Made by a program: the position numbers and the translations under genes | Source of the DNA: Gammaproteobacteria bacterium | Lineage (GTDB): Bacteria > Pseudomonadota > Gammaproteobacteria > Arenicellales > Poriferihabitantaceae | Direction: 5' to 3' | DNA: 64,000 bases | Assembly (NCBI GenBank): GCA_026709505.1 | Contig: JAPOSW010000022.1 | Location: forward strand, 1 to 64,000 | Part shown: positions 2,411-5,914 of the stretch, in pieces | Layout: the number at the start of each line of letters is the position of its first letter | Numbering within the stretch: position 1 is the stretch's first letter | Notes under the pieces: generated by a model | Seen by the model: the letters and a program-made list of their open reading frames with translations, nothing else | Told to the model about the DNA's origin: nothing | Databases searched by the model: none

Positions 2411-3001
2411 ATGACAGCAAGAACATCACAGATATCGAGGAAGACCAATGAGACACTGATCGAGGTGAAGGTCAATCTGGACGGAACCGGCCTCTGTTCC
2501 CTGAACACCGGCATTCCGTTTCTGGAGCACATGCTTGAGCAGGTGGCTCGTCATGGCATTATTGACCTTGATATTTCTGCACAGGGAGATTTGCATATTG
2601 ATGACCATCATACCGTTGAAGACATTGGCATCACACTGGGTCAGGCAGTTGCCGAGGCGCTGGGAAATAAAAAGGGCATATCCCGTTACGGCCATGCCTA
2701 TGTTCCGCTTGATGAAGCATTGAGCCGGGTAGTGCTTGATTTCTCGGGACGACCGCTGTTAACGAGCAACGTTGAATATCCAGACCGCATGATCGGCAAA
2801 TTCTCCGTGGCCTTGGTGCATGAATTCTTTCAGGGCTTTTGCAACCATGCTCTGGTCACCATGCACATGGACTGCCTGCGCGGCAAGAATGCCCACCATA
2901 TTGTCGAAACCCTGTTCAAGGCCTTTGGCCGGGCTCTCAAGATTGCCGTAGCCGTTGACGGTCGAATCACGGGAGTGCCCTCGACCAAGGGCGTACTCTG
3001 A
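2411..3001 (+). CDS. hisB: Imidazoleglycerol-phosphate dehydratase
   Basis: A 196-residue enzyme that dehydrates imidazole glycerol phosphate to imidazole acetol phosphate in histidine synthesis. Metal-binding HHTVED lies at residues 66-71 and the second-repeat counterpart [12 protein letters not shown] near 160. [10 protein letters not shown] at about 33-42 is also diagnostic. It is a monofunctional dehydratase (no N-terminal phosphatase domain as in E. coli). First gene of a tight rightward run hisB-hisH-hisA-hisF, with 14 bases to hisH. Confidence 0.97.
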
Positions 3002-3015
3002 ACCCGGGCATCGGC

Positions 3016-3681
3016 ATGCAGCCGCACCGAGTCGTCGTTGTCGACCTGGGGACCGGCAATCTTCGATCTGTCACCAAGGCAGTCAACACGGTCAGCCCGG
3101 ATTCCGAGGTCCATGTTTCCGCCGAGCCATCAGTAATCGCCGGTGCTGATCACATGATTCTACCCGGTCAGGGGGCAATAGGCACTTGGCTGAAGCAGCT
3201 GGAGCTGGGTTCCAAACTCAGACAGGCAGTGATGAGTGCGCTTGGCGATAAGCCGGTGCTCGGCATATGCCTGGGACTGCAGGCCCTGTATCGCTACAGC
3301 AGCGAAAACGGCGGGCAAAATGGCTTTGACCTGATATCCGGCAGCGTCAAGCATTTTTCAGAGGCCGGAACCGGTTTTGGCTCGGCAGTCGGTCAGCACC
3401 CGAGAAAAATCCCGCACATGGGCTGGAACCGCGTCACGCACACAACAGACCACCCGCTGTGGAAAGACATTCATGATGGCGAACGGTTCTATTTTGTGCA
3501 CAGCTATTATGCCGATAGTCAGGACCCGGATCAGGTCGCCGGGCAAACCGAGTATGGGATTACCTTCACTTCGGCGGCAGCGCAGGGCAACTTGTTCGCA
3601 GTTCAGTTTCACCCTGAAAAAAGCCAGCGTGCCGGACTGACCCTGCTCAAGAATTTCATCAACTGGAATGGAACCTGTTAA
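3016..3681 (+). CDS. hisH: Imidazole glycerol phosphate synthase, glutaminase subunit
   Basis: A 221-residue class I glutamine amidotransferase. It supplies ammonia from glutamine to HisF for making imidazole glycerol phosphate and AICAR. The nucleophile is Cys85 in GICLGLQ, and the His/Glu pair is H199/E201 in QFHPEKS. The oxyanion region reads PGQGAIG where most HisH have PGVGAF, a small variation. The stop overlaps the hisA start (TAATG), implying coupling. HisF lies two genes downstream, as expected for a heterodimer. Confidence 0.96.
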
Positions 3682-4433
3682 TGCTGATCATTCCTGCAAT
3701 CGACATCAAGGACGGGAAATGCGTGCGCCTCAGACAAGGCGACATGGACCGGGAAACCATTTACTCGGATGATCCTGCAACCATGGCCGAGCGCTGGATC
3801 GAACAAGGGGCCAGACGCATTCATATCGTGGACCTGGATGGTGCATCCCAGGGAAAACCGGTCAATGCGGACATCGTCCACAAGATTACCCAACGCCACC
3901 CTGAAGTGCCGGTCCAGATCGGAGGCGGTATTCGCAATGAAGAAACCGTAGCAGCCTACATTCAGGCAGGGGTTAAGTACGCGATTATCGGGACACAGGC
4001 AGTACGAGAACCGCAAATGATAGATGATCTGTGCAGCCGGTTTCCAGGACAGGTCATAGTCGGGCTGGATGCCCACGATGGGAAAATCGCCATTGAGGGC
4101 TGGTCGGAAATCTCAGAGCACAGCGCGATCGATCTTGCCCGCAATTTTGAGCATGCTGGAGTTGATTCGATTGTCTATACCGACATTTCTCGTGACGGCA
4201 TGCTTCAGGGAGCCAACGTTTCAGCAACGGCCGCCTTGGCCGGGGCAGTCTCCATACCGGTGATTGCCTCAGGTGGCATTGCCAGCCTGGATGACATTCG
4301 TCTGCTTGCTGAATATTCCCAGAGCGGCATTGTCGGGGCAATTACCGGCCGGGCAATTTATGAAGGCAGGCTGGATTTCAGTGCCGCTCAGGCACTTGCT
4401 GACGATCTGGTCGCCAGCTGCCCCATCGTATAA
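3681..4433 (+). CDS. hisA: ProFAR isomerase (HisA)
   Basis: A 250-residue (beta/alpha)8 barrel that isomerises ProFAR to PRFAR in histidine synthesis. N-terminal [17 protein letters not shown] holds catalytic Asp8, and [14 protein letters not shown] in the second half holds the partner acid. Phosphate-binding glycines appear in IGGGIR and ASGGIA. It starts on the last base of the hisH stop and ends 11 bases before hisF. Confidence 0.96.
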
Positions 4434-4444
4434 TCGAGTATCCC

Positions 4445-5221
4445 ATGCCTTTAGCCAAACGAATCATTCCCTGCCTGGATGTTGACCGGGGCCGGGTTGT
4501 TAAAGGCACCCGCTTCGTCAACTTGCGAGATGCGGGAGATCCCGTTCAAGTCGCATCCCGCTATGATCAGGAAGGCGCAGATGAGCTCGCATTTCTCGAT
4601 ATCACCGCAAGTTCCGATAATCGAGACACGATTGTTCATGTCGTTGAGGATGTTGCCGAACAGGTATTTATTCCACTGACCGTTGGCGGTGGAATCCGCA
4701 CGCTTGAAGACATTTCGCGCTTGCTGAATGCCGGGGCTGACAAGGTGTCGATCAACACCACGGCGGTCAATAACCCTGATTTCATTCGCGAAGCCAGCCA
4801 GCATTTCGGTAACCAGTGTATTGTCGTGGCAATTGATGCCAAACAAGTCGATGCCAAACCGGATGGTTCAATACAATGGGAAATTTTTACTCATGGCGGA
4901 CGAACCCCGACCGGCATTGATGCGATTGAGTGGGCAAAGAAAATGGAACAGTACGGTGCGGGAGAATTACTGGTAACCAGCATGGATCGGGACGGAACAA
5001 AAAATGGCTTCGATCTCGATTTAATGAAAACTATCACCAGCCAGACCGGAATTCCGGCGATTGCTTCAGGCGGGGTTGGCACCCTGGAACATCTCGTCGA
5101 AGGCGTGATTCAAGGCGGGGCCGATGCAGTGCTGGCAGCGAGTATCTTCCATTATGGCGAATACACGGTACACGAGGCCAAACAATACATGGCTCAGCAA
5201 GGGATCGAAATTAGACTGTAA
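4445..5221 (+). CDS. hisF: Imidazole glycerol phosphate synthase, cyclase subunit
   Basis: A 258-residue barrel that uses ammonia from HisH to convert PRFAR to imidazole glycerol phosphate. [15 protein letters not shown] at the N-terminus holds catalytic Asp12, and [10 protein letters not shown] carries the second catalytic Asp. TVGGGIRT and ASGGVGT are the phosphate loops. It is the last intact his gene here. In many gammaproteobacteria hisI and hisE follow directly before tatA; in this window only decayed hisI remains. Confidence 0.96.
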
Positions 5222-5259: not shown

Positions 5260-5630
5260 TCCAATGGGGTTCTCGCATGACGGGGGAACATTACCGACAG
5301 CATCAGGTAGAACGAGGCCGCATTGATCCCGGCGGTTGCACAACAATACGATACCGGTATGATCATGATGGTTGCATGGATGAATCCGCAAGCCTTTCTT
5401 GACATCCATTGAAAAAGGCTCAATCGCCGGGAACCTTACGGCATGATGCCGCCACATGAACAGTCAGGCTGGCCGGAAATTTTTTCCAACGCAAAAGCCT
5501 CGCACCAGATTACAGATGAAGTTTCAGGTGTTTTGCCGTTACAATACATGATTCCCTTGGGGTTCTGAAGTCTATGCCTGTCTTTTGACTGCTGGCAGGA
5601 CTGATGAATTTTCCCATCCACGACTATAGA
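5260..5630 (+). pseudogene. hisI: Decayed hisI (phosphoribosyl-AMP cyclohydrolase)
   Basis: The frame starting near 5287 reads TDSIR, stop, NEAALIPAVAQ, then MMVAWMNPQAF, which matches the HisI N-terminus (WNE.GLIPA.AQ, LM.AWMN.EAL). The TAG at 5308-5310 stands where HisI normally has Trp, a one-base change from TGG. A second stop (TGA) follows at 5410. The same frame resumes with IFSNAKASHQ and EVSG near 5479-5529, aligning with the YFSRSR and GE.SGH blocks, and another frame near 5576 resembles the ACHTGR block. The order hisF-hisI-hisE-tatA is common in gammaproteobacteria, and no room is left for hisE. Histidine synthesis therefore needs hisI/hisE elsewhere, or the cell is an auxotroph. 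Confidence 0.75.
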
Positions 5631-5656
5631 TTAAATAAACCGACGGAGATCAAATT

Positions 5657-5914
5657 ATGGGCTTTGGAGGAATCGGTCCGGTTCAACTGATCATTATTCT
5701 GGTAATCGTTTTGTTGATTTTCGGTACAAAGAAACTGAGAAATTTTGGTGGTGACCTAGGCGGAGCCATCAAAGGGTTCAAGAAGGCTGTCAAGGAAGAA
5801 GAAAATCCCGAATTGGACAACGAAAACAAGGCAAGCACAGAAGAAGCATCTGCTGAAACCACCGCACAACAGTCGAAGAAAGAAGAATCCAGTGAAACCA
5901 ATAAAGCGAGCTGA
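5657..5914 (+). CDS. tatA: Sec-independent protein translocase TatA
   Basis: An 85-residue protein with one N-terminal membrane segment (residues about 7-22), then the hinge [14 protein letters not shown] and an amphipathic helix ([13 protein letters not shown]). The C-terminal tail is acidic and disordered. TatA multimers form the pore for folded proteins carrying twin-arginine signals. It is followed by tatB after 19 bases; a ribosome site (GGAG) lies just before the ATG. Confidence 0.95.

Follow-up and report, generated by a model that had tools for sequence, protein, structure and literature searches.

A hisI pseudogene in the histidine operon and a folE–hisI–zigA cassette in a genus of the Poriferihabitantaceae

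Where metabolic enzymes have a second, zinc-responsive copy, that copy is regarded as an emergency spare. Copies of HisI and FolE that are linked to zigA have been placed in predicted or measured Zur regulons, where they occur alongside the housekeeping copies; this was described for HisI paralogs encoded beside COG0523 genes (Haas et al., 2009, PMC2770081) and for hisI2 of Pseudomonas protegens (PMC6103462). Canonical HisI, which provides the PRA-CH step of histidine synthesis, binds zinc with three cysteines that have been called universally conserved (PMC8102479). For the PRA-PH step, the MazG-family phosphoribosyl-ATP diphosphatase DVU1186/DvMF_3078 of Desulfovibrio has been reported to be needed for histidine synthesis (PMC5764234).

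Here we compare these systems with a histidine locus of a gammaproteobacterium of the Poriferihabitantaceae (assembly GCA_026709505.1). The window, i.e., the whole stretch of DNA that was analysed, comprises 64,000 nucleotides of contig JAPOSW010000022.1 and belongs to a genome of 3.50 Mb in 130 contigs that is 94% complete (G000). This genome is one of seven from its genus (G000-G006), a small series of related genomes. As in the Zur-regulated systems, a second HisI accompanies a GTPase of the COG0523/ZigA type and a FolE-type enzyme in G000. In those systems, however, it supplements a housekeeping HisI and is said to have conserved zinc ligands, whereas in G000 it is the sole copy and carries Asp in place of one Cys ligand. 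Moreover, the FolE of G000 belongs to the type I family (PF01227) and is the only intact copy of the genome. Plasmid pGS1191_1 of Gluconobacter albidus (NZ_CP014690) carries folE, hisI, and zigA in a block of identical order; FolE, HisI and ZigA are 71, 68, and 56% identical, respectively. That plasmid is conjugative and the block is located near a Fur-family regulator and DUF1826, while in the genus studied here the cassette is chromosomal, follows glpK and has no adjoining regulator. Backup zinc paralogs and MazG-type PRA-PH have each been described before; what seems to be new is their use as sole copies in these bacteria.

Remains of hisI in the histidine operon

The features of the window around the former hisI gene are as follows.

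2411..3001, plus strand: hisB (imidazoleglycerol-phosphate dehydratase), intact; NCBIfam NF002106, 325 bits (cut-off 283)
3016..3681, plus strand: hisH, intact; NCBIfam TIGR01855, 188.4 bits (cut-off 105.4); dN/dS 0.07-0.21
3681..4433, plus strand: hisA, intact ORF, named by sequence and operon position; dN/dS 0.08-0.19
4445..5221, plus strand: hisF, intact; 86-96% identical to five congeners and 77% to G004; dN/dS 0.06-0.11
5287..5412, plus strand: hisI pseudogene, surviving 5' part; tblastn to HisI of G003, reading of stops, blastn
5420..5502, no strand: junction where the 3' two thirds of hisI were deleted; falls between the two blocks of the blastn alignment with G003 and shows no detectable homology to congeners
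5503..5656, no strand: leader before tatA, marking the former end of hisI; blastn 80-90% to G003, G002, and G006, 74% over part of G005
5657..5914, plus strand: tatA, followed by tatB and tatC; ORFs

The stretch between hisF and tatA is a true hisI pseudogene inside an otherwise maintained histidine operon. The gap of 435 bases has no long ORF, and three-frame reading revealed a HisI N-terminus in frame 5221. The initial annotation had described such an N-terminus with a TAG in place of a conserved Trp and later stops, and had held that the reading would fall if the stretch showed no similarity to HisI on alignment. The alignment bears it out: positions 5287-5400 match the intact HisI of the congener G003 with 71% identity over 38 aa (tblastn, E 8e-17) and the nucleotide sequences agree to 77% over 133 bases (blastn), TAG 5308-5310 stands at the conserved Trp (IR*NEA here vs. 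IRWNEA in G003), and TGA 5410-5412 closes the frame. A foreign or chance match as the source of the similarity was ruled out by the E value together with synteny. The deletion has removed the 3' two thirds of the gene, and the alignment with congeners picks up again at 5503, downstream of the end of hisI in G003; the leader that begins there is conserved in congeners both with and without hisI. Thus, syntenic HisI homology and disabling lesions are both present at the ancestral locus.

Three congeners have lost the gene at the same site in different ways. In G002 the ancestral hisI is of full length but frameshifted, with a stop in the GRHHC motif; in G006 only the ends of the gene are left, with an internal deletion unlike that of G000; G005 has no recognisable ancestral hisI, although the tatA leader still aligns. 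Because G000 is a draft assembly of many contigs, one might suspect that its hisI is intact and that the stops arose in sequencing or assembly. We give this practically no credence, since the gap measures 621-622 bases in G002 and G003, so that ~187 bases are missing from G000, and since the lesions differ among the genomes and cannot represent a shared assembly error.

hisB, hisH, hisA, and hisF were annotated as intact, and all four are indeed intact ORFs; HisG is also present in G000. With the Nei-Gojobori method (G000 vs. congeners), dN/dS was 0.05-0.21 for hisF, hisA, and hisH together (congeners with a dead ancestral hisI), 0.10-0.19 for the hisI of the cassette (HisI2), 0.03-0.08 for zigA and 0.04-0.10 for a MazG-like gene described below. 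Purifying selection (dN/dS 0.03-0.21) thus acts on the remaining his genes, on the hisI of the cassette and on zigA, which makes a decay of the pathway unlikely, and histidine synthesis is probably not being lost.

The initial annotation had offered two possibilities, a second hisIE elsewhere in the genome or a pathway that is losing its function, and had called for a genome-wide search for hisI, hisE, and hisIE. The search returned one intact hisI on another contig (C55:17188-17415, E 1.2e-30) and no hisE (PF01503, E<=0.001). The first possibility was therefore right as far as HisI is concerned, with the qualification that this HisI is of a divergent type and that no second hisE accompanies it. 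According to the second possibility, the organism or its whole clade would be auxotrophic, with hisE lost first and hisI next. The missing hisE and the dead hisI agree with it, and three of 60 relatives (G029, G043, G057) are without a HisI or HisF match, so that loss does occur in the order. On the other hand, hisB, hisH, hisA, hisF, and hisG are intact, hisF, hisA, and hisH retain the dN/dS given above in lineages without the ancestral hisI, and an intact HisI2 under selection exists. Furthermore, hisI is retained in 15 of the 16 HisE-minus genomes of the family, which would be senseless if the preceding step were missing. We consider a decaying pathway very improbable and continue with the reading that the pathway is maintained. 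This implies that a stop-ridden hisI together with a missing hisE should not be equated with histidine auxotrophy in metagenome-based models.

Further observations concern the surroundings of the his genes. Upstream of them, the ORF 141-755 encodes a Zeta-toxin/AAA-like kinase domain (PF06414, 27.3 bits, cut-off 22.3), and a ParD antitoxin/ParE toxin pair lies on the minus strand just upstream of hisB (1319-1926; PF03693, 37.3 bits; PF05016, 34.1 bits). The hisF match in a named MAG (L095 1790-2923) comprises 258 residues over 1134 bases, which points to ~360 extra bases inside or to a split gene.

The folE–hisI–zigA cassette and its type-2 HisI

The intact hisI on C55 is the single PRA-CH match of G000 (PF01502). 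It is part of a cassette that lies after glpK and runs folE, hisI, zigA; a second COG0523 gene and a gene with WD40 repeats come next. The encoded HisI reaches 105 bits with PF01502 (cut-off 27) and 154.2 bits with the PRA-CH equivalog model NF000768 (cut-off 126). The product of the third gene is a COG0523 GTPase of the ZigA type and exceeds the cut-off of the equivalog model for ZigA, a zinc metallochaperone (NF038288, 616 bits vs. 600). The cassette is found after glpK in G000, G002, G003, and G005. In G006, folE is cut by the contig end, and hisI, zigA, and a dacA-like gene come after. In the block of G002 (L193, C1:42500-49500) no zigA was found and dacA comes directly after hisI, which looks like a loss of zigA, though FolE and HisI of this genome are the cassette copies only. 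A search for a Zur box in the 750 bases upstream of the cassette in four genomes yielded no conserved palindrome, only an A/T-rich conserved patch.

Judged by the roles assigned to the HisI sites (PMC8102479), the cassette HisI of each of the five congeners contains the Asp triad DxDxD of the Mg site (IDDDQD) and the His general base (SCHVG). Among the three zinc-ligand cysteines (MtHISN2 Cys126, Cys142, Cys149), the equivalent of Cys126 is replaced by Asp, while the other two Cys and the His are kept. The Asp form (DDDQD for DCDxD) occurs in the cassette HisI of the five congeners and in every copy of this D type that was extracted, from other gammaproteobacteria as well as from the Paracoccus, Phaeobacter, and Gluconobacter plasmids. 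In the HisI tree, D-type and canonical sequences are separated at 99/96. The tree does not resolve the donor of the cassette to the genus, and a possible alphaproteobacterial origin can be regarded as a lead only.

About a dozen unrelated gammaproteobacteria, among them single-contig assemblies and complete genomes such as G243, G103, and G234, have no PRA-CH match other than D-type HisI, and HisE was found in 11 of the 11 D-type-only genomes that were checked or sampled. Since it is the sole PRA-CH in these genomes, and those examined have HisE, D-type HisI very probably works as PRA-CH. For the same reason, its being the only match in complete genomes, the missing zinc cysteine is read as a variant and not as an exclusion from the PRA-CH family.

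A plasmid of Phaeobacter inhibens has two genes for phosphoribosyl-AMP cyclohydrolase within 4 kb (L262 1243-1716, 4950-5423), together with thrS, a gene for a GTP-binding protein and DUF1826.

Ancestral hisI and folE across the genus

A second folE is found in G000 at C49:23696-23929 (L330 about 4100-4480), with two stops and ridden with frameshifts; its zinc motif CEHH is gone and the read-through gives FEYH. In G001, G003, and G004 an intact folE lies beside a DUF2797 gene, with a dctP-like gene after it in G001 and G003. The same neighbours (DUF2797, dctP-like) enclose the stop- and frameshift-ridden folE remnants of G000 and G006, and in G002 and G005, where only the cassette folE was found, the ancestral folE was undetected.

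The seven genomes can be arranged in a series. Two of them (G001, G004) have no cassette, one PRA-CH match each, which is canonical, and intact ancestral hisI and folE. One (G003) has the cassette and both ancestral genes intact; in these three genomes hisF is followed by the intact hisI and then by tatA. The other four (G000, G002, G005, G006) have the cassette, a dead or missing ancestral hisI, and an ancestral folE that is dead or undetected. In the cassette carriers except G003, ancestral hisI and folE have thus decayed together.

This pattern in seven related genomes suggests one acquisition, followed by the loss of two redundant copies. In histidine synthesis the cassette enzymes would have taken on the PRA-CH step and in folate synthesis the first step, and the take-over would have freed the old hisI and folE from selection. 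Alternatively, the cassette might serve only as a backup under zinc starvation and the decay of hisI and folE might be a coincidence, given that ZigA-linked copies elsewhere stand in Zur regulons beside housekeeping copies (PMC2770081, PMC6103462). However, every one of the four genomes with a dead ancestral hisI has the cassette and no intact ancestral folE, both cassette-less genomes keep the two genes, and the four have no intact PRA-CH besides the type-2 HisI of the cassette; a mere backup role is therefore very improbable. A hisI pseudogene, a take-over by the cassette and the joint decay of hisI and folE, taken as a whole, form the best explanation, and we hold it with good confidence.

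A further-reaching proposal is more doubtful and is made here only tentatively: that a single mobile zinc-deficiency cassette permanently replaced two housekeeping zinc enzymes, PRA-CH and GTP cyclohydrolase I, with intermediates in one genus, and that its Asp-for-Cys HisI may be a zinc-sparing PRA-CH that serves as sole copy. The genus seems to show spares that have turned into sole copies for two pathways, with an intermediate species (G003) that holds both sets. With such intermediates, one can ask if the metal requirement of the two pathways, for histidine and for folate, has changed as well.

Loss of hisE and a candidate for the PRA-PH step

The absence of hisE between hisF and tatA, also part of the initial annotation, was confirmed: the gap contains no hisE ORF, and G000 as a whole gave no PF01503 match at E<=0.001. 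At the completeness of this assembly, the absence from one genome alone is no proof; since all seven genomes of the genus are without hisE, an assembly gap cannot explain it. A strong HisE match was absent from the seven genomes and from genera g2-g6 of the family, and HisE is present in genera g7 and g8 and in most of the order. The gaps between hisF and tatA in the HisE-minus genomes G001, G003, G004, G007, G010, and G020, which were read fully, contain no HisE-like ORF, and hisI stands directly before tatA. A loss of hisE together with hisI was considered and rejected. From this distribution, the loss of hisE is read as a separate and older event, because congeners and other genera with an intact hisI already lack hisE. 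Despite this loss hisI could be retained, and a different PRA-PH is thereby implied.

A candidate for the missing PRA-PH step can be named. Between glyS and gmhB, G000 encodes a 113-aa protein (C125:14534-14872, minus strand) that belongs to the MazG family (PF03819, 28.3 bits, cut-off 22), is the only match to this family in the genome, and falls just below the cut-off of the HisE model (21.0 bits). Homologues with 59-92% identity are present in 44 of 60 relatives including G000; the nearest relative in the PDB is found only at E 0.16. Weak PF01503 matches, which occur in nearly all relatives, were rejected as HisE: of the 20 that were read, 19 represent one small MazG-like family and the remaining one, in G053, is a different small MazG protein.

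The situation resembles that in Desulfovibrio, where a small MazG-family protein has been proposed as the replacement in a genome without obvious hisE. There, a transposon mutant of DVU1186/DvMF_3078 needs histidine (PMC5764234), whereas for the candidate in G000 the link is one of genomic co-occurrence. By analogy, the MazG-family protein of the glyS–mazG–gmhB locus, which could be an old housekeeping protein open to recruitment, may carry out the PRA-PH step; hisE, the gene for this step, had disappeared earlier within the family. Among the 18 HisI-positive, HisE-negative genomes, 16 carry the MazG-like protein, the exceptions being G007 and G053. It is also found in many HisE-positive genomes, and its presence therefore does not show the HisE reaction.

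The step might instead be performed by something else, either an unrelated pyrophosphohydrolase or a hisE in unsequenced parts of the genome. G007, a 96% complete genome of the same family, has HisI and neither HisE nor the MazG-like protein, and the bit scores place the candidate closer to MazG than to HisE. Set against this are the high co-occurrence in HisE-negative genomes, the lack of any other MazG-family match in G000 and the absence of hisE from the entire genus, the last of which weighs against an unsequenced copy. We rate this alternative at somewhat under an even chance, and a PRA-PH role of the MazG-family protein at about an even one.

The glyS-linked MazG-like gene looks interrupted in two relatives, by a TAG inside the match in G035 (L214) and by a split into two pieces in G056 (C99); both genomes have HisE.
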